Source: Adhaeribacter arboris (GTDB taxonomy: Bacteria > Bacteroidota > Bacteroidia > Cytophagales > Hymenobacteraceae). From it: a stretch of DNA of 64,000 bases. The stretch is taken from positions 3,224,001 to 3,288,000 of the forward strand of contig NZ_PYFT01000001.1 in the NCBI RefSeq assembly GCF_003023845.1, given 5' to 3'. Each line of letters begins with the position of its first letter. Within the stretch, counting starts at the first letter, position 1. Shown here piece after piece: positions 5,384 through 17,214 of this stretch. A program made the translations under genes and the position numbers. Below the pieces are notes generated by a model. That model was not told the DNA's origin, ran no database searches, and worked only from the letters and a program-made list of their open reading frames with translations.

Positions 5384-5905
5384 ATGTTTTTACAAGGCGA
5401 ACATATTTATTTACGCGCTCTGGAGCCAAGTGATCTTGATTTTTTATACAGTTTAGAAAACGATACTGCTATTTGGCCGGTAAGTAATACTACTACTCCA
5501 TTTGCCAAACATGTATTGCAGCAGTATCTGGAGCAAGCTGCGGCAGATATTTACACGATAAAACAATTACGGTTACTCATCAATACGCACCAGCATTGGG
5601 CTGTAGGAACTATAGATTTATTTGATTTTGAACCTATTCACCAACGAGCAGGGGTGGGAATTGTAATTGCTCCTCCTTTCCGGCAACAACGCTACGCCAC
5701 CGAAGCGCTACAATTAATACTAAAATATTGCCGGGAACACCTGTTCTTGCATCAGGTTTTTTGTTCTGTCAGTAATGATAATGTAAGCAGTTTACGTTTG
5801 TTCGAGAGTGCAGGCTTCTTAGCTGTAGGTATTCGTCGAGAATGGATAAGAACGCCGAAAGGTTGGCAAGATGTTATAGAATTTCAAAAAATTTTGGCGG
5901 ATTAA
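5384..5905 (+). CDS. GNAT family N-acetyltransferase (RimJ/RimL-type)
   Basis: Predicted acetyl-CoA-dependent N-acetyltransferase of 173 residues. The opening LQGEHIYLRALEPSDLDFLY is typical of the RimJ/RimL/SpeG branch. The acetyl-CoA loop appears as PPFRQQRYATEAL (about 99-111), and the family motif VSNDNVSSLRLFESAGF follows at about 128-144. The substrate could be a protein N-terminus, a polyamine or a small amine; the sequence does not say which. It lies 17 bases after dapF and is likely co-transcribed. No clear terminator directly follows it. Confidence 0.85.
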   Translation: MFLQGEHIYLRALEPSDLDFLYSLENDTAIWPVSNTTTPFAKHVLQQYLEQAAADIYTIKQLRLLINTHQHWAVGTIDLFDFEPIHQRAGVGIVIAPPFRQQRYATEALQLILKYCREHLFLHQVFCSVSNDNVSSLRLFESAGFLAVGIRREWIRTPKGWQDVIEFQKILAD

Positions 5906-6377
5906 ATTTTTCTTCTTTAAATATTTATACTGTTAATTTGTTTGATTCAAAAGCCGAAAACTCCTTTTCTATAATTATAAATTTAACCTTAGCTTAATTA
6001 TATAGTTGAAGGTTATATTTTAAATAAAATACAATTTTCTTCTTAAAAATACCTAGAACCAACCGTTAAGTTGCTTTTGAACGACTAAGTTTTATAGTAT
6101 TTTCTTTTCACAACATAATTGTATAATTGTATTTTTTACAGGAATAATATTATATTCTTCTTTCCTATTTTGGAATTTATACGGATTAAGGGGTAAGCAT
6201 TTCTACTTAAAACAGAAGTTTATTAGGCTTATTTTTGATATACGCAATATCTTTTTAAAAAATATTGCGTATTAGTCCTTATATAAGCAAAACCTTATTG
6301 CTGATTAGCTTTCGTTGAAAATTTCTTAATAAATTTCAAATTTATTTAAAGTGACAAAATAACTGTACGTAATCTCT
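5906..6377. other. AT-rich intergenic region upstream of polysaccharide cassette
   Basis: About 470 bases, strongly AT-rich, with no credible ORF. The only clear structure is a long inverted repeat at 6241-6271. The promoter of the glycosyltransferase at 6378 is expected here, but no exact TAnnTTTG box was found just upstream of that gene. Confidence 0.5.
6241..6271. repeat. 31-base nearly perfect palindrome
   Basis: Arms TACGCAATAT (6241-6250) and ATATTGCGTA (6262-6271) flank a centre that is itself almost self-complementary (TTTTTAAAAA plus one C). It lies about 335 bases after the GNAT stop and 106 bases before the glycosyltransferase ATG. It could be a weak terminator or an operator; neither is shown by the sequence. 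Confidence 0.6.
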
Positions 6378-7628
6378 ATGCTAAAATTTGACCAGAATAG
6401 TTCTTTGAATCCTGAAGCAAAAAACATAATAGCTACCGCTAAACCCGCTGCCCTGAATGACGCAAATGCCCTTAGCCCTACCGCTGATGTAAATCAACTC
6501 GAAAACTTTATCCAGAATATGCCGGATATTGTTTGTTTATCGCATTTACGTTGGGATTTTGTATACCAGCGACCGCAGCATTTACTTTCGCGTTTTGCGA
6601 AACATGGGCGATTATTCTTCTTTGAAGAACCGCAATTCTATCATGGTGCCCAACCACATCTGGATATAAGCCGCCGCGAGGATAACGTACATATTGTAGT
6701 AGCGCATTTACCCCATGGTTTAACGCCGCAGGAATCAGATGCTATTCAGATTAACTTAGTAAATGAGTTTATTCAAGAGCAGCAAATTAAGCAATTTATT
6801 GCCTGGTATTATACGCCTATGGCCTTGGAAGTATATGGCCATTTAGAACCCGCTTTAACCGTTTACGATTGCATGGACGAACTTTCTGCCTTTAAAGGAG
6901 CTTCGCCGCGCCTACGTGAACTAGAGGCTGACCTTTTCAAGAAAGCTGACCTGGTATTTACGGGTGGGCACAGTATTTACGAATCAAAACGTACGCAGCA
7001 CCCGGAAGTATATGCCTTTCCGAGCAGTATTGATAAAGCCCATTTCGCTCAAGCTCGCACAGAAATTGTTGAACCCGAAGATCAAAAAAATATTCCGCAT
7101 CCCCGTTTTGGTTTCTACGGCGTGGTAGATGAACGTTTTGATATTGAATTGTTACGCGAAGTAGCCGCAATGCGCCCGGATTGGCATTGGGTAATTATTG
7201 GTCCCGTAGTTAAAATTGATCCTGCTACTTTACCACAGGCTGAAAACATTCATTATCTGGGCGGGAAAAGTTATAAAGAATTACCCACTTATTTAAGCTC
7301 TTGGGATGTAGCTACTATGCCCTTTGCTATAAATGAATCTACTAAATATATCAGCCCTACTAAAACACCCGAATACTTAGCCGGTGGCAAACCTGTAGTA
7401 TCTACCCCAATCCGGGATGTAATACGCCCTTACGGCGATCAAGGATTGGTACATATTGCTGCTACTCCCCCTGAGTTTGTTGAGGCTCTGGAAAAAGCAT
7501 TACTGCAACGTAACGATTCAGAATGGCTTGCCCAAACAGATGCTTTTTTAGCCAATATCTCCTGGGATCATACCTGGCAGAATATGGTAAACTTAATTCA
7601 AATTGCTATCACCGAAAAATCAAAGTAA
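6378..7628 (+). CDS. Glycosyltransferase, GT4-like family (polysaccharide cassette)
   Basis: Predicted GT-B fold glycosyltransferase of 416 residues. The first 48 residues are non-conserved and look disordered. The catalytic part opens with DIVCLSHLRWDFVYQRPQHL, a motif of glycosyltransferases that act in exopolysaccharide or O-antigen clusters. The C-terminal nucleotide-sugar lobe carries PHPRFGFYGVVDERFD and the segment ISPTKTPEYLAGGKPVV, where the family's conserved donor-binding glutamate falls (TPEYLAGG). UDP-galactopyranose mutase follows 53 bases after its stop, suggesting that UDP-galactofuranose or a related sugar is the donor; that link is inference. An internal ATG at codon 49 is an alternative start. 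Confidence 0.82.
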   Translation: MLKFDQNSSLNPEAKNIIATAKPAALNDANALSPTADVNQLENFIQNMPDIVCLSHLRWDFVYQRPQHLLSRFAKHGRLFFFEEPQFYHGAQPHLDISRREDNVHIVVAHLPHGLTPQESDAIQINLVNEFIQEQQIKQFIAWYYTPMALEVYGHLEPALTVYDCMDELSAFKGASPRLRELEADLFKKADLVFTGGHSIYESKRTQHPEVYAFPSSIDKAHFAQARTEIVEPEDQKNIPHPRFGFYGVVDERFDIELLREVAAMRPDWHWVIIGPVVKIDPATLPQAENIHYLGGKSYKELPTYLSSWDVATMPFAINESTKYISPTKTPEYLAGGKPVVSTPIRDVIRPYGDQGLVHIAATPPEFVEALEKALLQRNDSEWLAQTDAFLANISWDHTWQNMVNLIQIAITEKSK

Positions 7629-7681
7629 GCTCCTAGCTTTAAACTAACCCAAATTGTTAAACTATTAAATTGAGAAACTCT

Positions 7682-8875
7682 ATGTTCGACTATCTTATTG
7701 TTGGAGCTGGCTTTGCCGGAAGTGTATTGGCCGAACGCCTTGCTACCCGTTCTAATAAAAAAGTATTAATTATTGACAAAAGATCGCACATTGCCGGAAA
7801 CGCATTCGATCATTACAATGAAGAAGGTATTTTAGTCCATAAATACGGGCCTCATATTTTCCATACCAATTCCAAAGACGTTTTCGATTATTTGTCACAA
7901 TTTACCGATTGGCGTTCGTATGAGCACCGCGTGTTAGCCAGCGTAGATGGACAGTTAGTACCTATTCCGATTAACCTAGATACTATTAATAAATTATATG
8001 GCTTAAACCTTACTTCTTTTGAGTTAGAAGACTGGTTTGAGTCGGTAGCGGAGCAAGTGCCCGTAGTACGTACATCCGAAGATGTTGTGGTAAGTAAAGT
8101 GGGCCGTGAATTATATGAAAAATTCTTCCGGAATTATACTCGTAAACAATGGGGCATGGACCCATCAGAACTAGATAAATCTGTTACTTCCCGGGTACCT
8201 ACCCGCACCAACCGCGATAACCGGTACTTCACCGATACGTATCAGGCGATGCCTTTAAATGGTTTTACAGCTATGTTCGAGAAAATGCTGGCGCACCCGA
8301 ACATTAAAATAATGCTGAATACCGACTACAAGGAAATTGTAGACGTGATTCCGTTTAAGGAAATGATTTTTACTGGGCCCGTAGATGAATATTTTGATTA
8401 TCAGTTCGGTAAATTGCCTTATCGCTCCCTGGATTTTAAACACGAAACATTAAATACCGAAACTTTCCTGCCAACGGCGGTGGTAAACTATCCGAACGAA
8501 CACGCTTATACCCGGATAACTGAATTTAAATACTTAACCGGTCAAAAACATCCGAAAACCAGCGTGGTTTATGAATACCCACAAGCCGACGGAGACCCTT
8601 ATTATCCGGTTCCACGGCCAGAAAATGCCGAGTTGTATAATAAATACAAAAAATTAGCCGATCAAACCCCGAATGTTCACTTTGTAGGCCGGTTAGCTAC
8701 TTATAAATACTATAACATGGATCAGGTGGTAGCCCAGGCACTTACACTGTATAAAAAACTTACCGAGAAAACAGAAGAAGATAAATCCATTGCAGAAATT
8801 GAGAAGATCGTAGTAAAAGGAAAATCTTTGAACGGGTCTATTATCAAAATCTCCAGTAAAAATGGCGATCATTGA
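7682..8875 (+). CDS. glf: UDP-galactopyranose mutase
   Basis: Flavoenzyme converting UDP-galactopyranose to UDP-galactofuranose, the donor for galactofuranose in surface glycans. The protein starts MFDYLIVGAGFAGSVLAERL with the FAD-binding GxGxxG motif. It also shows HIAGNAFDHYNEEGILVHKYGPHIFHTN, split here around the conserved GPHIFHT, the FRNYTRKQWG active-site region and the C-terminal FVGRLATYKYYNMDQVV FAD-contact motif. I chose the ATG at 7682; a TTG twelve bases earlier is in frame but less likely. A tail of about 25 residues (EKTEEDKSIAEIEK onward) exceeds the usual family end. Its last 14 bases overlap the next gene, indicating translational coupling. Confidence 0.96.
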   Translation: MFDYLIVGAGFAGSVLAERLATRSNKKVLIIDKRSHIAGNAFDHYNEEGILVHKYGPHIFHTNSKDVFDYLSQFTDWRSYEHRVLASVDGQLVPIPINLDTINKLYGLNLTSFELEDWFESVAEQVPVVRTSEDVVVSKVGRELYEKFFRNYTRKQWGMDPSELDKSVTSRVPTRTNRDNRYFTDTYQAMPLNGFTAMFEKMLAHPNIKIMLNTDYKEIVDVIPFKEMIFTGPVDEYFDYQFGKLPYRSLDFKHETLNTETFLPTAVVNYPNEHAYTRITEFKYLTGQKHPKTSVVYEYPQADGDPYYPVPRPENAELYNKYKKLADQTPNVHFVGRLATYKYYNMDQVVAQALTLYKKLTEKTEEDKSIAEIEKIVVKGKSLNGSIIKISSKNGDH

Positions 8876-11099
8876 TTTATGGGGCGGAGTTGAATGCAGT
8901 TGTAACCGGGTAGGAGAACAGTTCTTCGACCAGTTAAGCAGAAACGGTCATCGGGATCGCATAAGTGATCTGGATCTATTTGCCTCCTTAGGAATAAAAA
9001 AATTGCGTTACCCAGTGCTTTGGGAGCACGTTGCTCCTCAAAGCCTGGACACGCCAAACTGGTCTTGGTCGGATGAAAGATTGCAGCGTTTGCAGCAATT
9101 AAAAATCGACCCCATTGTTGGTTTGGTCCACCACGGTAGCGGGCCGATTTATACCAATTTAGCAAGTGATAATTTTGCGCCTTTACTAGCGCAATATGCC
9201 CGAATGGTAGCAGAACGCTATCCTTGGGTTAACTATTATACTCCCGTTAACGAACCCCTCACTACCGCCCGGTTTAGCTGCCTTTATGGTTTTTGGTATC
9301 CGCATCAAACCTCCGATAAAGATTTTGTTCGGGCATTATTAAATCAGGTAAAAGGTACTAAACTTGCTATGCAAGCCATCCGGCAAATTAATCCGGATGC
9401 CAAGTTGGTTCAAACGGAAGATTTAGGAAAATCGCATAGCACCAAACTACTAGCCTATCAGGCAGAATTTGAAAACGAGCGCCGATGGTTAACCTTCGAT
9501 TTACTGTGCGGTAAGGTTACTCCTGAACATAAACTTTGGCAGTATTTAATAACTACGGGCCTTTCCGCGGAGGAATTACTCGAATTTGTTGAAAGCCCTC
9601 TCCCGCCCGATATTTTCGGAATTAACCATTATATCACCAGCGAACGGTACTTAGATGAGCATTTGTCTATTTTCCCGCTGCATACGCACGGTAATAACGG
9701 CCGGCATAAATACGCCGATGTAGAAGCTGTACGGGTAAAAGGGGTAGAACGAGCCGGAATTAAAGAATTATTGCAAGAAGCCTGGCAACGCTATCAAGGG
9801 GTCATTGCCATTACGGAGGCGCACCTATGCTGTACCCGCGAAGAACAAATGCGCTGGTTTATGGAAATTTGGGAGGCAGCTACCGAACTGAATCAAGCTG
9901 GGGTGAATTGTCTGGCGGTAACTGCCTGGGCTCTTATTGGTTCTTACGATTGGAACTCGTTGCTTACCCGTAGCAACGGCCATTACGAAAATGGAATTTT
10001 TGATTTACGGATAGGAACTCAACCCTGGCCAACCGCTTTAGCCGGTATGCTGAAAAGCCTGAGTCAAACCGGAAAGTACCACCACGATGTATTGCAGCAC
10101 AAAGGGTGGTGGGACCGGGAAGAACGTTACGCGTACCGGCACGGAGATCCCTATATCTTTAAGCCTACGCATAAACCCATTCTGGACCATAAACAACGAC
10201 CAGTGCTCATAACAGGAGCTACTGGCACGCTGGGACAAGCCTTTGGCCGCATTTGCCAGGACCGAGGATTACACTATTATTTAGTAAGCCGGGCCGAAAT
10301 GGATATTACCAATCCGGAATCTGTTAAATATGCGGTAGCTCGCTATAATCCCTGGGCTATTGTGAATGCGGCCGGCTATGTGCGCATAGACGATGCGGAA
10401 AGAGAACCCAATAAATGCTACCGGGCAAATACGACAGGCCCCATTTTATTAGCGAAAATTTGCAAAGCAGCTAATATTCAACTCTTAACTTTTTCTTCGG
10501 ATTTAGTTTTTGATGGCAGTAAAGCTGGCCCTTATGTGGAGGAGGATCAACCGAATCCCCAAAATGTATATGGTAATAGTAAATTCCTAGCTGAAAAAGA
10601 AATACTACGCATTCTGCCGGAAGCTTTAATAATCAGGTCAAGTGCTTTTTTTGGAATTTGGGACCGGGATAACTTTGTTCACTTTGCTCTAAAATCATTC
10701 CTGCAAGGTATTCCCTTTGCGGCAGTAAACGATGTAAAAATTTCAGCTACTTATGTGCCGGACTTGGTGCAACATTCCTTAGATTTATTAATTGATCGGG
10801 CGAATGGTATCTGGCATTTAACTAATTCAGGAGACTTTACCTGGGCAGAATTAGCGGAATTAATAGCAGATATTGCTCTTTTAAAGGATGTACATATAGA
10901 AAGGCAACCCATCTCGTCTTTTAACCTGCCGGCTTATCGGCCAAAGAATTCAGCGTTAGAAAGCACTAAATCTTATATCATGCCATCGATAGAAAATGCT
11001 CTGCATCGTTGTATTCCAGAAATTATGCAAACGTTGGCTCGAGAAAGGACTTCTGGAGATAAAGATCTATTTCCTGCAGAAGAAAAGCTAAGCGGTTAA
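8862..11099 (+). CDS. Fusion protein: GH1-like glycosidase domain plus RmlD-like sugar-nucleotide reductase
   Basis: A 745-residue two-domain protein. Residues 1-430 resemble family 1 glycoside hydrolases, with a TPVNEP motif placing a potential acid/base glutamate at E131 and a second glutamate in AITEA at E319, where the nucleophile is expected. Residues 446-725 resemble dTDP-4-dehydrorhamnose reductase (RmlD, extended short-chain dehydrogenase fold): NAD(P) motif TGATGTLG at 451-458, SSDLVFDG with S545/S546, and the YxxxK pair Y570/K574. It overlaps glf by 14 bases, ending a three-gene polysaccharide cassette, and a terminator follows. The GH1 half may be a glycosidase or a carbohydrate-binding scaffold. 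The RmlD half probably makes or modifies a deoxysugar donor. Product and substrate are unknown. Confidence 0.85.
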   Translation: MAIIDLWGGVECSCNRVGEQFFDQLSRNGHRDRISDLDLFASLGIKKLRYPVLWEHVAPQSLDTPNWSWSDERLQRLQQLKIDPIVGLVHHGSGPIYTNLASDNFAPLLAQYARMVAERYPWVNYYTPVNEPLTTARFSCLYGFWYPHQTSDKDFVRALLNQVKGTKLAMQAIRQINPDAKLVQTEDLGKSHSTKLLAYQAEFENERRWLTFDLLCGKVTPEHKLWQYLITTGLSAEELLEFVESPLPPDIFGINHYITSERYLDEHLSIFPLHTHGNNGRHKYADVEAVRVKGVERAGIKELLQEAWQRYQGVIAITEAHLCCTREEQMRWFMEIWEAATELNQAGVNCLAVTAWALIGSYDWNSLLTRSNGHYENGIFDLRIGTQPWPTALAGMLKSLSQTGKYHHDVLQHKGWWDREERYAYRHGDPYIFKPTHKPILDHKQRPVLITGATGTLGQAFGRICQDRGLHYYLVSRAEMDITNPESVKYAVARYNPWAIVNAAGYVRIDDAEREPNKCYRANTTGPILLAKICKAANIQLLTFSSDLVFDGSKAGPYVEEDQPNPQNVYGNSKFLAEKEILRILPEALIIRSSAFFGIWDRDNFVHFALKSFLQGIPFAAVNDVKISATYVPDLVQHSLDLLIDRANGIWHLTNSGDFTWAELAELIADIALLKDVHIERQPISSFNLPAYRPKNSALESTKSYIMPSIENALHRCIPEIMQTLARERTSGDKDLFPAEEKLSG

Positions 11100-11123
11100 G
11101 TCTAATTCTAAGAATTTAATAGT

Positions 11124-11154
11124 AAAAAGCTGTTCGTAATCTGGGCAGCTTTTT
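11124..11154 (+). terminator. Intrinsic terminator of polysaccharide cassette
   Basis: Stem AAAAAGCTG/CAGCTTTTT with a 13-base loop, followed by a T-rich tract, 24 bases after the fusion gene stop. Confidence 0.8.
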
Positions 11155-11243
11155 ATTTTTGTTTTAGTTAAGATGAAAGCTCATAACTTTACCGTAATGT
11201 TTTCATCAGTCATGTCAATACGTCAGAGTTAAAGAATAAACTC

Positions 11244-11251
11244 TACTTTTG
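11244..11251 (+). promoter_or_regulatory. Candidate -7 promoter element for Ldh-family gene
   Basis: TACTTTTG matches TAnnTTTG exactly and lies 28 bases before the ATG at 11280. No clear -33 TTG is found at normal spacing. Confidence 0.45.
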
Positions 11252-11279
11252 GCTTCAGTCATTACAATTTAGCTTCACT

Positions 11280-12341
11280 ATGTATTCTTACGATCATCTT
11301 TATACCTTTACCAAACAAGTCTTTCAAAGTATTGGCTGCCCCGAAGAAGATGCTGATTTAGCTACGGAAGTATTATTATCTGCCGATCTAAGAGGCATTG
11401 ACTCACATGGTATTGCCCGGCTAATTGGTTACGTACGCCTCTGGGAAACAAACCGGATTAATGCTACTCCAGACGTAAAAGTAGTACACGAGACACCCAG
11501 TACAGCGGTAGTAGACGGAGACAGCGGTTTAGGTTTAGTAGTTGCTCCCCACGCAATGGAAATTGCCATACAAAAAGCCCAAGTAGCTGGTACTGGTTGG
11601 GTTTCAGTAAAAAATTCAAATCATTTTGGTATTGCGGGTTACCATGCCATGAAAGCCTTAGCAAAAGATATGATTGGTATAGCTATGACCAATGCCAGCC
11701 CGTTGGTTGCGCCTACTAATTCTTTAGAACGTTTATTAGGAACCAATCCTATTGCGGTAGCTATACCGGCGAATGAACAACCCGCGTTTGTAGCGGATTT
11801 TGCTACCACTACTGCAGCCAATGGTAAACTAGAAATTTTACAACGTAAGAATCAAGAAGCACCCCTTGGCTGGATACAAGACGCCCAAGGTCAAAACTCT
11901 ACTAATCCAAACGAACTAAAAGCAGGAGGAGCGCTAATGCCTTTAGGAGGAGAAACCGGCAGCCACAAAGGCTATTGTTTAGGTTCTATCGTTGATATAT
12001 TTTCGGCAGTTTTATCAGGAGCCAATTATGGCCCTTGGGTACCACCCTTTGTAAGTTTTTTGCCCTTACCAACTAACCCCGTAGGAGCAGGCATCGGACA
12101 TTTTTTTGGAGCTATGCGTATAGATGCTTTTCGTCCGGCTGATGAATTTAAAACCCACATGGATAATTGGATTACTACGTTCCGCCAGTCCAAAGCTAAA
12201 TCAGAAGAAACACCTGTTCTTATTCCGGGTGATCCGGAAAGAATAATGGCGGCAAAACGCTTTCAAGAAGGTATTCCGCTTTTAGATCCCGTAGTAAAAG
12301 ATTTAGAATCGTTAGCAAATAAATTTTCTTTATCCTTTTAA
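11280..12341 (+). CDS. Ldh family (malate/L-lactate dehydrogenase type 2) oxidoreductase
   Basis: NAD(P)-dependent oxidoreductase of the Ldh_2 family, unrelated to classical Rossmann lactate dehydrogenases. Members reduce or oxidise 2-oxo/2-hydroxy acids such as malate, sulfolactate or ureidoglycolate. The 353 residues contain the conserved ADLRGIDSHGIARL (about 40-53), the VKNSNHFGIAGYHA segment with the family histidine (about 108-121), and the MTNASPLVAPTNSLERLLGTNP cofactor region, shortened here to its core GTNPIAVAIP. It is a single-gene unit with its own -7 box and a shared terminator. The exact substrate cannot be told. Confidence 0.87.
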   Translation: MYSYDHLYTFTKQVFQSIGCPEEDADLATEVLLSADLRGIDSHGIARLIGYVRLWETNRINATPDVKVVHETPSTAVVDGDSGLGLVVAPHAMEIAIQKAQVAGTGWVSVKNSNHFGIAGYHAMKALAKDMIGIAMTNASPLVAPTNSLERLLGTNPIAVAIPANEQPAFVADFATTTAANGKLEILQRKNQEAPLGWIQDAQGQNSTNPNELKAGGALMPLGGETGSHKGYCLGSIVDIFSAVLSGANYGPWVPPFVSFLPLPTNPVGAGIGHFFGAMRIDAFRPADEFKTHMDNWITTFRQSKAKSEETPVLIPGDPERIMAAKRFQEGIPLLDPVVKDLESLANKFSLSF

Positions 12342-14136: not shown

Positions 14137-15417
<1,281 letters not shown>

Positions 15418-15460
15418 TTATAAGTGGTTAAAATTTATGATATGGAAACGTTACCGGTTG

Positions 15461-15494
15461 CAATACTACTAATTATGTCCTAGAAAACTTCAAA
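15461..15494 (-). promoter_or_regulatory. eno: Possible eno promoter
   Basis: Minus-strand TTTG (15491-15494) and TAGTATTG (15461-15468, one mismatch to TAnnTTTG) are 22 bases apart and the -7 box lies 46 bases before the eno ATG. Confidence 0.35.
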
Positions 15495-15499
15495 CTGCT

Positions 15500-16603
15500 C
15501 TAAGCATTTTTAAGTAATTGAATAAAATTATCGAAGAGATAATTTGAATCATGTGGGCCTGGAGAAGATTCAGGATGGTATTGCACGGAAAATGCTTTTT
15601 TACCTTTTATCCGGATACCTTCAATGGTGCCATCATTTAAGTTGATATGAGTAACTTCTACTTGGTCATTATTCTTAACCGCTTCTCCATCTACAGCAAA
15701 ACCATGGTTTTGAGATGTAACTTCACATTTTCCTGTAATTAAATTTTTAACTGGATGATTCAAACCTCTATGACCGTTATGCATTTTATAAGTTGCAATG
15801 CCATTGGCTTGAGCTAAAACCTGATGACCCATACAAATGCCAAATAAAGGTTTATCGCGATCCAAGATTCGATTAACACTCTCCACTGCTTGTGTAGTTG
15901 CAGCCGGATCCCCTGGCCCGTTCGATATAAAGTAACCATCAGGCCCCCAAGCTTCCATTTCATCGAAAGAGGTATCGTACGGAAAAACTTTGCACTCACA
16001 TCCCCGGCTTACCAAATTATGTATGATGTTCCTTTTTACACCTAAATCTAGGATAGCCACCTTAAATTCTACCTTATCTGGTTTCATTATATACTCATCC
16101 CTCGTACTAACCTGCGATGCCAGTTCTAAACCATCCATAGAAGGAGTAGCTGCTAATTTTTCTTTAAGAACTTCTACATCTAAAATATCAGAAGAAATTA
16201 TTGCATTCATAGCCCCTTTATTGCGTATATGCCGGACTAATTCTCGGGTATCAATTTCACAAATGCCAACAACACCAGCTTTCTCAAAATATTCTTGTAG
16301 CGAACCCTCCGCTGAGCGTCTGGAAAAAAAATCAGAAAATTCTTTACAAACTAGACCCTTAATTTGGACTTGCTTAGATTCTACTTCCTGATTAAGTACC
16401 CCATAATTACCTACGTGCGAAACTGTTGTAATCACGATTTGTCCGTAATAAGATGGATCCGTAAATATCTCCTGATACCCTGTCATTCCGGTATTAAAAC
16501 AAAGTTCGCCTGAATTTGTACCGGTACAGCCAAGACTCTTACCTTTCCATTGGGTACCGTCCGCTAATAATAAAATAGCGTCAACTGCTTTCTTTTCTTT
16601 CAT
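15500..16603 (-). CDS. carA: Carbamoyl-phosphate synthase small (glutaminase) subunit
   Basis: Glutamine amidotransferase subunit that feeds ammonia to CarB for pyrimidine and arginine synthesis. The 367-residue form starts at ATG 16603 (MKEKKAVDAILLLADG). An in-frame TTG at 16621 is rejected because it almost touches the upstream terminator. The N-terminal CPSase_sm_chain domain has GELCFNTGMTGYQEIFTDPSY, whose core is NTGMTGYQEIFTDPSYYGQ. The class I glutaminase domain has the nucleophile elbow FGICMGHQVLAQ and the His/Glu pair in SVQYHPESSPGPHD. carB is not adjacent. The promoter candidate at 16619-16626 overlaps the terminator of the ribosomal operon. Confidence 0.96.
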   Translation of the reverse strand: MKEKKAVDAILLLADGTQWKGKSLGCTGTNSGELCFNTGMTGYQEIFTDPSYYGQIVITTVSHVGNYGVLNQEVESKQVQIKGLVCKEFSDFFSRRSAEGSLQEYFEKAGVVGICEIDTRELVRHIRNKGAMNAIISSDILDVEVLKEKLAATPSMDGLELASQVSTRDEYIMKPDKVEFKVAILDLGVKRNIIHNLVSRGCECKVFPYDTSFDEMEAWGPDGYFISNGPGDPAATTQAVESVNRILDRDKPLFGICMGHQVLAQANGIATYKMHNGHRGLNHPVKNLITGKCEVTSQNHGFAVDGEAVKNNDQVEVTHINLNDGTIEGIRIKGKKAFSVQYHPESSPGPHDSNYLFDNFIQLLKNA

Positions 16604-16618
16604 AGATGTAATGTTTTG

Positions 16619-16626
16619 CAAAAATA
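16619..16626 (-). promoter_or_regulatory. carA: Candidate carA -7 element fused to upstream terminator tail
   Basis: TATTTTTG on the minus strand is an exact TAnnTTTG and starts at the base after the rplQ-operon hairpin, so the terminator's T-tract forms part of it. It ends 15 bases before the carA ATG. No clear -33 TTG is seen at normal spacing. Confidence 0.4.
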
Positions 16627-16658
16627 AAAAGGGATATGATTTAAGTCATATCCCTTTT
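16627..16658 (-). terminator. Terminator of the ribosomal protein/rpoA operon
   Basis: Stem AAAAGGGATATGA/TCATATCCCTTTT (13 pairs, 6-base loop) followed by T-rich sequence on the minus strand, 28 bases after the rplQ stop and 23 bases before the carA ATG. Confidence 0.85.
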
Positions 16659-16686
16659 AAAAATTATTGTAAAATTTAAATATTTA

Positions 16687-17214
16687 TTAAACATCCTGAA
16701 CATTTTCAGAATTAGATGTTGAACTATCAACTGAATTGGCGTTATTTTCTGTTGCACCAGCGTTTGAAGAGCTTTCACTTTCCTTTCTTTTTCCGCCTCT
16801 TCTTCTTGTTCTGGTTTTAGTTTCAGTGGCTTTAGCTGCTGTCCCTAACATTGCTTCGTTATAATCAACTAACTCAATGATGCACATATCGGCATTATCT
16901 CCTAAACGGTTTCCTGTTTTTAGAATACGAGTATATCCCCCAGGACGATTAGCAATTTTACTTGATACTTGATCAAAAAGTTCTTTTAAGGATTCTTTAT
17001 TTTGCAAGTAAGAGAAAATAGTTCTTCTCGAGTGAGTTGTATCGTTTTTTGATTTGGTTAATAGAGGCTCTACATATTTACGCAAAGCTTTTGCTTTTGC
17101 TATGGTAGTAGATACGCGCTTATGCAGAATCAATGAGGATGCCATATTAGACAACATTGCCTTTCTATGAGCGGAAGTCCTGCCTAAATGATTAATTTTT
17201 TTACCGTGTCTCAT
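16687..17214 (-). CDS. rplQ: 50S ribosomal protein L17 with C-terminal extension
   Basis: Large-subunit protein near the exit tunnel. The conserved core ([20 protein letters not shown] to about residue 124) matches L17. A further 50 residues form a low-complexity tail, first Arg/Lys-rich ([12 protein letters not shown]) then Ser/Asn/Glu-rich ([17 protein letters not shown]). E. coli L17 has 127 residues; this has 175. The gene is the last of the alpha operon, 5 bases after rpoA, and is followed by a terminator. Confidence 0.97.

Follow-up and report, generated by a model that had tools for sequence, protein, structure and literature searches.

A GH1–RmlD-type fusion protein of Adhaeribacter arboris and the putative galactofuranose cassette that it marks in bacteria of several phyla

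A stretch of 64,000 nucleotides from Adhaeribacter arboris (contig NZ_PYFT01000001.1, positions 3,224,001 to 3,288,000; hereafter the window) contains, at 8862–11099 of its forward strand, an open reading frame without internal stop that encodes a protein of 745 amino acids, in which a glycoside hydrolase family 1 (GH1) domain is joined to a short-chain dehydrogenase/reductase (SDR) domain of the RmlD type. This gene is the third of a cassette on the same strand, following a gene for a TuaH-like glycosyltransferase (6378–7628; PF13692, E 2.8e-9) and the glf gene for UDP-galactopyranose mutase (7670–8875; TIGR00031 and PF03275), with which it overlaps by 14 bp. The listed start codon of glf is TTG, and an ATG lies four codons in. 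The cassette is preceded by an intergenic region (5906–6377, forward strand), between the open reading frames at 5384–5905 and 6378–7628, which presumably contains the promoter. The transferase scored 76.6 bits against the TuaH model NF047676, under the cut-off of 550, and a sequence search at E 0.01 retrieved no relative with a solved structure. Glf scored 407.3 bits against TIGR00031, above the cut-off of 303.75.

The initial annotation of this DNA had described a fusion of a GH1-like and an RmlD-like domain, and both were recovered by Pfam above their cut-offs in the intact reading frame: Glyco_hydro_1 (PF00232) at residues 35–366 (46.5 bits, cut-off 22.6) and RmlD_sub_bind (PF04321) at residues 448–704 (203.7 bits, cut-off 27; E 4.2e-60). 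All coordinates within the gene refer to the forward strand. The GH1 half comprises residues 1–407 (8862–10082) and the SDR half approximately residues 447–720 (10200–11021). They are connected by a linker of residues ~408–446 (10083–10199), where the predicted confidence (pLDDT) is low at 420–443 and where the gene is split in sister genera. The predicted structure of the whole protein (mean pLDDT 66.4, pTM 0.55, four sequences) was used for fold assignment only. A structure check proposed earlier thus succeeded for the GH1 half, while the SDR assignment rests on sequence profiles, because the Foldseek TM-scores for this part were low on the whole model. All seven other genomes of the same genus encode the protein over at least 727 of the 745 residues, with 64–85% identity and no stop, so that the junction is real and an assembly or frameshift artefact, which the initial annotation had allowed for, is ruled out. 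The fusion is one intact protein.

The model of residues 1–407 has the (beta/alpha)8 fold of GH1, and its best structural match was Thermotoga maritima BglA (2j7h_A; Z 29.7, rmsd 3.4, 357 aligned residues, 17% identity). E131 (9252–9254), in the motif TPVNEP, and E319 (9816–9818), in the motif ITEAH, had been put forward as the catalytic pair; in sequence alignments they are in register with the glutamates of the NEP (acid/base) and TEN (nucleophile) motifs of solved GH1 enzymes. Both are invariant in 41 of 41 distinct full-length fusions, together with E11, H90, H91, N130, P132, H321 and W364; this set consists of copies longer than 650 amino acids, to the exclusion of split, shortened and eroded ones. 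Both are also conserved in at least 98% of 80 GH1 halves. Among 13 standalone GH1 paralogs (~30% identity), E131 was found in 12, E11 in 12 (D in the other), and E319 in all 11 that aligned at this position, the other two being gapped there. Paralogs of this kind, of 400–411 amino acids and from the same broader clade, occur at L115:10857–12089 and in the A. arboris genome itself (G000:C1:5868218–5869246, L002); at L115 (genome G040) the paralog adjoins a transferase–glf pair.

The likeness to GH1 beta-glycosidases (BglA, PDB 2j7h/1od0; PF00232) thus covers the fold, the NEP acid/base and the ITE nucleophile, and it extends in alignments to the His, Asn-Tyr and Trp of the -1 subsite. The differences are also considerable. 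Identity to the BglA rows is 14–17%, the score against the GH1 beta-glucosidase equivalog TIGR03356 (54.9 bits) is far from its cut-off (478.5), and the fusions have ITEAH/ITEVH and HHGSGP where GH1 beta-glycosidases have ITENG and HWDLP, besides being joined to an SDR. Two further differences concern the sugar pocket. N15 is found in 35 of 41 fusions, and position 363 is D in 30, G in nine and E in two. We take these positions to correspond to BglA Q20 (N15, from the shared LWG start) and BglA E405 (363), which presumably hold O4 and O6 of the sugar. Since both positions are changed, the pocket of this family may be suited to a sugar altered at C4 or C6.

The SDR half retrieved RmlD structures at the top of a profile search (3sc6, 4.1e-56), and Foldseek matched it to GacA/RmlD (4wpg, E 5.6e-17); the separate structural comparison that gave BglA as best match listed GH1-type rows only and therefore says nothing against RmlD. 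It resembles RmlD (S. pyogenes GacA 4wpg, PDB 3sc6; PF04321, TIGR01214) over the whole Rossmann SDR domain, including GxxGxLG, the S/T-Y-K residues and the RmlD C-terminal part. TGATGTLG, Y570 and K574 are present as first described, and so is S546 (catalytic segment at 10497–10583). Among 75 SDR halves, S/T-Y-K is intact in 70 and G455 in 73, and the window protein has them all. The five exceptions to S/T-Y-K are Deinococcus QL22 (K to R), genome G046, the sphingomonad locus L139 (Y to F) and two Caballeronia copies. As matches shorter than 200 residues were omitted from the 75, Sphingomonas aracearum, Mesorhizobium and Ensifer are uncounted: the SDR half is eroded in S. aracearum, its C-terminal part is shortened in two Mesorhizobium copies, and the Ensifer copy is a GH1 half alone.

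Unlike RmlD, the SDR half is below the cut-off of the dTDP-4-dehydrorhamnose reductase equivalog TIGR01214 (208.9 vs 224.05 bits). Where solved RmlDs have STDYVF and RTSWLYG or RTAWVFG, most members of the family have SSDLVF and R(T/S)xAFFG: position 595, the Trp of RTxW(L/V)(Y/F)G in four aligned solved RmlDs, is Ala in 64 of 75 members, including the window protein. This Trp we take to be a substrate contact. This contrast should not be overrated: in four RmlD-like genes that stand alone in the examined genomes, F takes the place of the Tyr of STDYVF, and the Trp is present in one of the four only. Other RmlD-like genes are retained in the genome of A. arboris and in its relatives. These comparisons suggest that the SDR half is most likely active, with a changed substrate.

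A search for other proteins with the same domain order found full-length copies in several phyla, usually with a transferase and glf as neighbours. Among 28 Bacteroidota loci of the family, 17 have all three genes adjoining, in the window in the order transferase, glf, fusion; four have transferase and fusion without adjacent glf, and seven have neither partner. Trios or near versions of them are found in Deinococcus aetherius, where a SARP-type regulator intervenes, and in Mesorhizobium, Ensifer and S. daechungensis, with a divergent arrangement in Caballeronia. In Gloeothece, Sphingobium, many sphingomonads, the S. aracearum genome and genome G696, transferase and Glf are one protein. Cassette Glf passes the equivalog cut-off of the galactofuranose pathway enzyme (TIGR00031), but differs from ordinary Glf in forming a clade of its own, whose members lie next to, or are joined with, a transferase of a single family in every case where the available stretch suffices, except at locus L118. 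The 67 cassette-type sequences (494–916 bits to the window Glf) and five ordinary ones (281–310 bits) were separated by one branch with support of 100; this division was made by score alone, since the label for absence of a transferase mostly marked loci that end before it.

The pairing with glf claimed in the initial annotation also held beyond the window. A glf match was found in all 30 family-bearing genomes checked, whether the family member was fused, split or a GH1 half alone, and 29 matches were over the cut-off; in genome G521 the match covers profile positions 128–374 only, at contig bases 43–744, and seems to come from a gene truncated where the contig begins. Among relatives without the family, 13 of 34 have glf. 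The fusion marks a three-gene cassette common to bacteria of several phyla.

The family, fused or split, was present in 25 of 59 genomes in a search of relatives (A. arboris included), with only a fragment at a contig end in genome G052. It is rare in a draw from the phylum (five of 395 genomes including A. arboris; in one of these, L040/L076, only the GH1 half is present), in the class of S. aracearum (three of 289) and in its order (26 of 396). Full-length copies occur across Cyanobacteria, Deinococcus, an Acidobacteria metagenome-assembled genome, and alpha- and betaproteobacteria, and the family is also present in Paradesertivirga. Membership in Bacteroidota was for part of the genomes assigned from kinship and named relatives (Runella, Paradesertivirga), and the conservation counts include loci re-cut from one place (for example L023/L071 and L099/L123), like identical sequences, a single time. 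Plasmid-borne copies were found in Gloeothece, Deinococcus, Microvirga, Runella, Azospirillum, Caballeronia, Novosphingobium and Sphingobium; 551 plasmid records had any match, and in 19 of them a single place accounts for 80% or more of the query. Azospirillum thermophilum (L053) carries two diverged fusions (9001–11283 and 14391–16817) within 8 kb. None of the scanned viral contigs held a relative, and a viral origin was rejected; PHROGs matches were confined to the SDR half, as nucleotide-sugar epimerase.

On an 80-row GH1 tree, fused copies are found in every deep group sampled, namely Sphingomonadales, other alphaproteobacteria, Cyanobacteria, Acidobacteria, Deinococcus and Bacteroidota. 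The label of GH1 alone needs five changes on this tree, one of which is L106, a cut copy falsely so labelled. The direction of fusion and split changes would be as suggested by this distribution, the tree being unrooted. Split genes form one Bacteroidota clade (seven rows, support 99: L012, L014, L015, L016 and L026–L028), in which the halves remain neighbours, either with stop and start codons that overlap (CCATGATGG) or with gaps of up to about 15 bases, as in TGAGCTATG; a further junction at the domain linker is TAGCTGATG. The stop is TGA in L012, L014 and L016 (in L016 near codon 430) and TAG in L015, and the second gene is in the same frame. These close junctions look like translational coupling. 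The two halves belong together, but a single chain is not required. In some lineages that retain GH1, the SDR half has disappeared, decayed or become a separate gene, which is an argument for regarding the glycosidase step as the essential one.

An indication of when the cassette may be expressed came from alphaproteobacterial loci, a scan of which showed sites resembling the EcfG motif of the general stress response near the cassette. In an exploratory count, this motif was found at seven of 17 cassette starts and at nine of 108 neighbours (p 0.0014). The follow-up set consisted of 26 new loci from 25 other Sphingomonadales genomes (genome G450 left out), as 15-kb stretches, in which GGAAC-N16-19-GTT was searched for on the right strand within 350 bases upstream, with the expectation taken from local density. 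The motif was present at 17 of 20 new transferase(-Glf) starts (0.53 expected) and at seven of 26 fusion starts (0.76 expected). With 89 other letter permutations of the motif the mean was 0.85, and the best of them, with nine of 20, was a register shift of the same box (CGGAA). The spacing was N17 in six loci and N18 in 11, with N15 also in two, and spacer sequences vary among loci. These motifs agree with those given for Sphingomonas melonis, GGAAC-N17-20-GTT (PMC6599016), and for Sphingopyxis granuli and Rhizobium etli, GGAAC-N16-CGTT (PMC7083833, PMC3892343). The top genes tabulated in the S. melonis report include a 'Glycosyltransferase' (#1750), 'Glycosidases' (#1751) and further transferases, which could be neither matched to the cassette nor excluded (PMC6599016). 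The likeness to the EcfG regulon, GGAAC-N17/18-GTT upstream of the cassette, is seen in many sphingomonads, some rhizobia, Azospirillum and Microvirga. The sphingomonad cassette carries this general-stress promoter signal in most of the new loci, and its transcription is predicted to depend on EcfG.

The surroundings of the cassette gave no other general partner among the neighbours inspected. Neighbours common within the family of A. arboris are of housekeeping type: SecA, a DeoC-type aldolase, an M20 peptidase, one protein without Pfam match, DapF, GNAT and Ppx/GppA. An Ldh_2 gene (11280–12341) follows the fusion only in the window and in L058–L060. A SecA gene does so in twelve other loci of this family (by Pfam on L061), and a SecA relative sits at the start of the window on the other strand, suggesting a rearrangement. 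A GH5 (cellulase-family) gene accompanies seven of 39 alphaproteobacterial loci (L092:9310–10377 and six other sphingomonad loci). In some alphaproteobacteria a second GT4 gene and an amidohydrolase gene accompany the cassette (L122:7613–9694; L056:4533–6553), with an EcfG-like site just upstream of the amidohydrolase start in L056 and inside the gene in L122. At L111:8828–10339 and L112:9045–10571, in fusion-less relatives, transferase–glf is followed by a gene for a protein of 503–508 amino acids without Pfam match.

No conserved exporter, flippase, ligase or polymerase was seen among the neighbours of family loci, as far as these were identified, and no membrane-type hydrophobic stretch was found in the three cassette proteins (highest 19-residue mean 1.42), so that the route is probably cytoplasmic. 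One Caballeronia locus (L094) adjoins capsule-type ABC genes.

These features can be joined in a pathway in which a mobile three-gene cassette would make and edit a galactofuranosyl, or related, glycoside in the cytoplasm. Glf would provide UDP-galactofuranose, this being the sole step with an equivalog-level assignment, and the partner glycosyltransferase would move galactofuranose onto an acceptor. The GH1 half, whose sugar pocket appears to be altered, would then act as a retaining beta-glycosidase or transglycosidase that trims or transfers a sugar on the product, and the SDR half would reduce a keto-sugar on the same route, aided by its closeness to the GH1 site. The cassette would be stress-induced at least in part of the alphaproteobacteria. 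Sequence evidence establishes the two domains with their catalytic residues, the gene cassette, the occurrence of fused copies in all deep branches sampled, with a split and losses, and the EcfG motif; the enzyme activities, the order of steps, the substrate, the cytosolic location and any stress control in A. arboris itself, which has the motif-less Bacteroidota type of cassette, are predictions. A cytosolic galactofuranosyl-glycoside cassette, stress-switched at least in part of the alphaproteobacteria, whose product is remodelled by the GH1–SDR protein, is tentatively favoured here, at a confidence somewhat short of even.

Several observations weigh against this pathway, and two of them, the ordinary glf in some genomes and the position of the EcfG sites, are the reason why it is held no more firmly. 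Four loci (L035, L052, L071 and L077) have transferase and fusion without adjacent glf, and in the three searched genomes lacking an adjacent glf (G046, G091 and G449) the distant glf is of the ordinary type. Neither partner was seen beside the copies of Deinococcus ficus, QL22 and deserti, Novosphingobium and Microvirga, beside the fusion in six of the 26 Sphingomonadales stretches, or in the seven Bacteroidota loci mentioned above. Conversely, cassette-type glf and transferase occur without the fusion in L107–L112 and L124–L126, and at L118 cassette-type glf has no transferase within its 15 kb. Eleven of 15 genomes from the family of A. arboris that have no fusion also have glf, so that its co-occurrence is partly kinship. 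As to the promoter, most EcfG sites of the cassette lie 159–209 bases from the homology-placed start, and sites in S. melonis are concentrated no more than 100 bases from the coding start (PMC6599016); because of this distance one has to suppose either that the leader is long or that the true start lies further upstream. The motif is missing at three of the 20 new starts and at the transferase starts of S. yanoikuyae and Mesorhizobium 113-3-3, where the sole EcfG-like site is at a divergent amidohydrolase unit, and it was found nowhere in the transferase–Glf stretch of S. aracearum. It was found upstream of none of 29 Bacteroidota transferases, that of the window included, so that stress control in Bacteroidota is an extrapolation, and the motif counts overstate independence because the loci are related.

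Of the alternatives, the one closest to the initial annotation, which pointed to galactofuranose/deoxysugar surface glycans, is that the cassette adds or edits such a unit of an exported glycan, with the SDR half as an ordinary dTDP-4-keto-sugar reductase. In known bacteria Glf mostly serves the making of surface glycans, capsule-type ABC genes lie beside Caballeronia L094, and the absence of the Trp is a weak argument against an ordinary reductase when only one of four standalone RmlD-like genes has it. A score for rmlC above the cut-off in 28 of 30 family-bearing genomes is in the same direction, but a gene so widely carried discriminates a rhamnose role poorly, and it was not found in G521 and G696 (assembly completeness not stated). 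The claim of surface glycans found no support in the conserved neighbours or in membrane-like segments, as described above, and the SDR half falls under the RmlD equivalog cut-off and is changed at the substrate positions of solved RmlDs, in genomes that retain other RmlD-like genes. We consider this explanation rather unlikely. A dTDP-fucofuranose route, presumably Fcf1/Fcf2-like, is left open: the cassette Glf passes the cut-off for UDP-galactopyranose mutase, but this model may not separate the substrates.

The protein could also be a two-step catabolic or repair enzyme, in which the SDR half reduces a keto-glycoside, arising for example from oxidative damage, and the GH1 half hydrolyses the glycoside, the transferase and Glf being separate and sharing only locus and promoter. 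Fusions often join adjacent steps, N15 and D/G363 fit a C4- or C6-altered sugar, the sphingomonad promoter is of stress type, and copies exist without transferase or glf nearby. However, a linkage with transferase and glf over several phyla is better explained by one pathway, and the SDR half is lost, eroded or without catalytic residues in rhizobia, S. aracearum and Caballeronia where GH1 is kept. We consider this explanation unlikely. The same pattern of decay, which hits the SDR and not GH1, bears on the suggestion that the GH1 fold is a catalytically silent sugar-binding or regulatory scaffold for the SDR. Silent GH1 proteins of the klotho type exist, beta-klotho was among the fold matches, and identity to characterised GH1 enzymes is only 12–22% (GH1 rows of the structure matches); with E131, E319, H90 and W364 never varying in the 41 fusions, this suggestion is weakened and appears very improbable.

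Each domain is known, and the protein is present in databases under partial names, in plasmid records as 'family 1 glycosylhydrolase', 'sugar nucleotide-binding protein', 'SDR family oxidoreductase' or hypothetical. In literature searches of open-licence full text, without supplements or their tables, we came across no report of the fusion, of the cassette or of its stress promoter, nor any that names the cassette as an EcfG regulon member. Annotators thus see one half of the protein at a time, while the whole protein marks a three-gene cassette. It offers a testable entry to a possibly stress-linked sugar compound, and a case of a fusion whose glycosidase persists while its reductase decays. 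A bolder form of the favoured pathway, which we regard as doubtful, is a hitherto unrecognised, horizontally spread stress pathway. In it, a galactofuranosyl glycoside would be made in the cytosol by Glf together with a dedicated transferase, and then be reduced and transferred or released by a GH1–SDR protein with its pocket retuned for a C4/C6-altered sugar. If this were true, the general stress response would include a metabolite based on galactofuranose, and a clade of GH1 enzymes would act in synthesis and not in breakdown.

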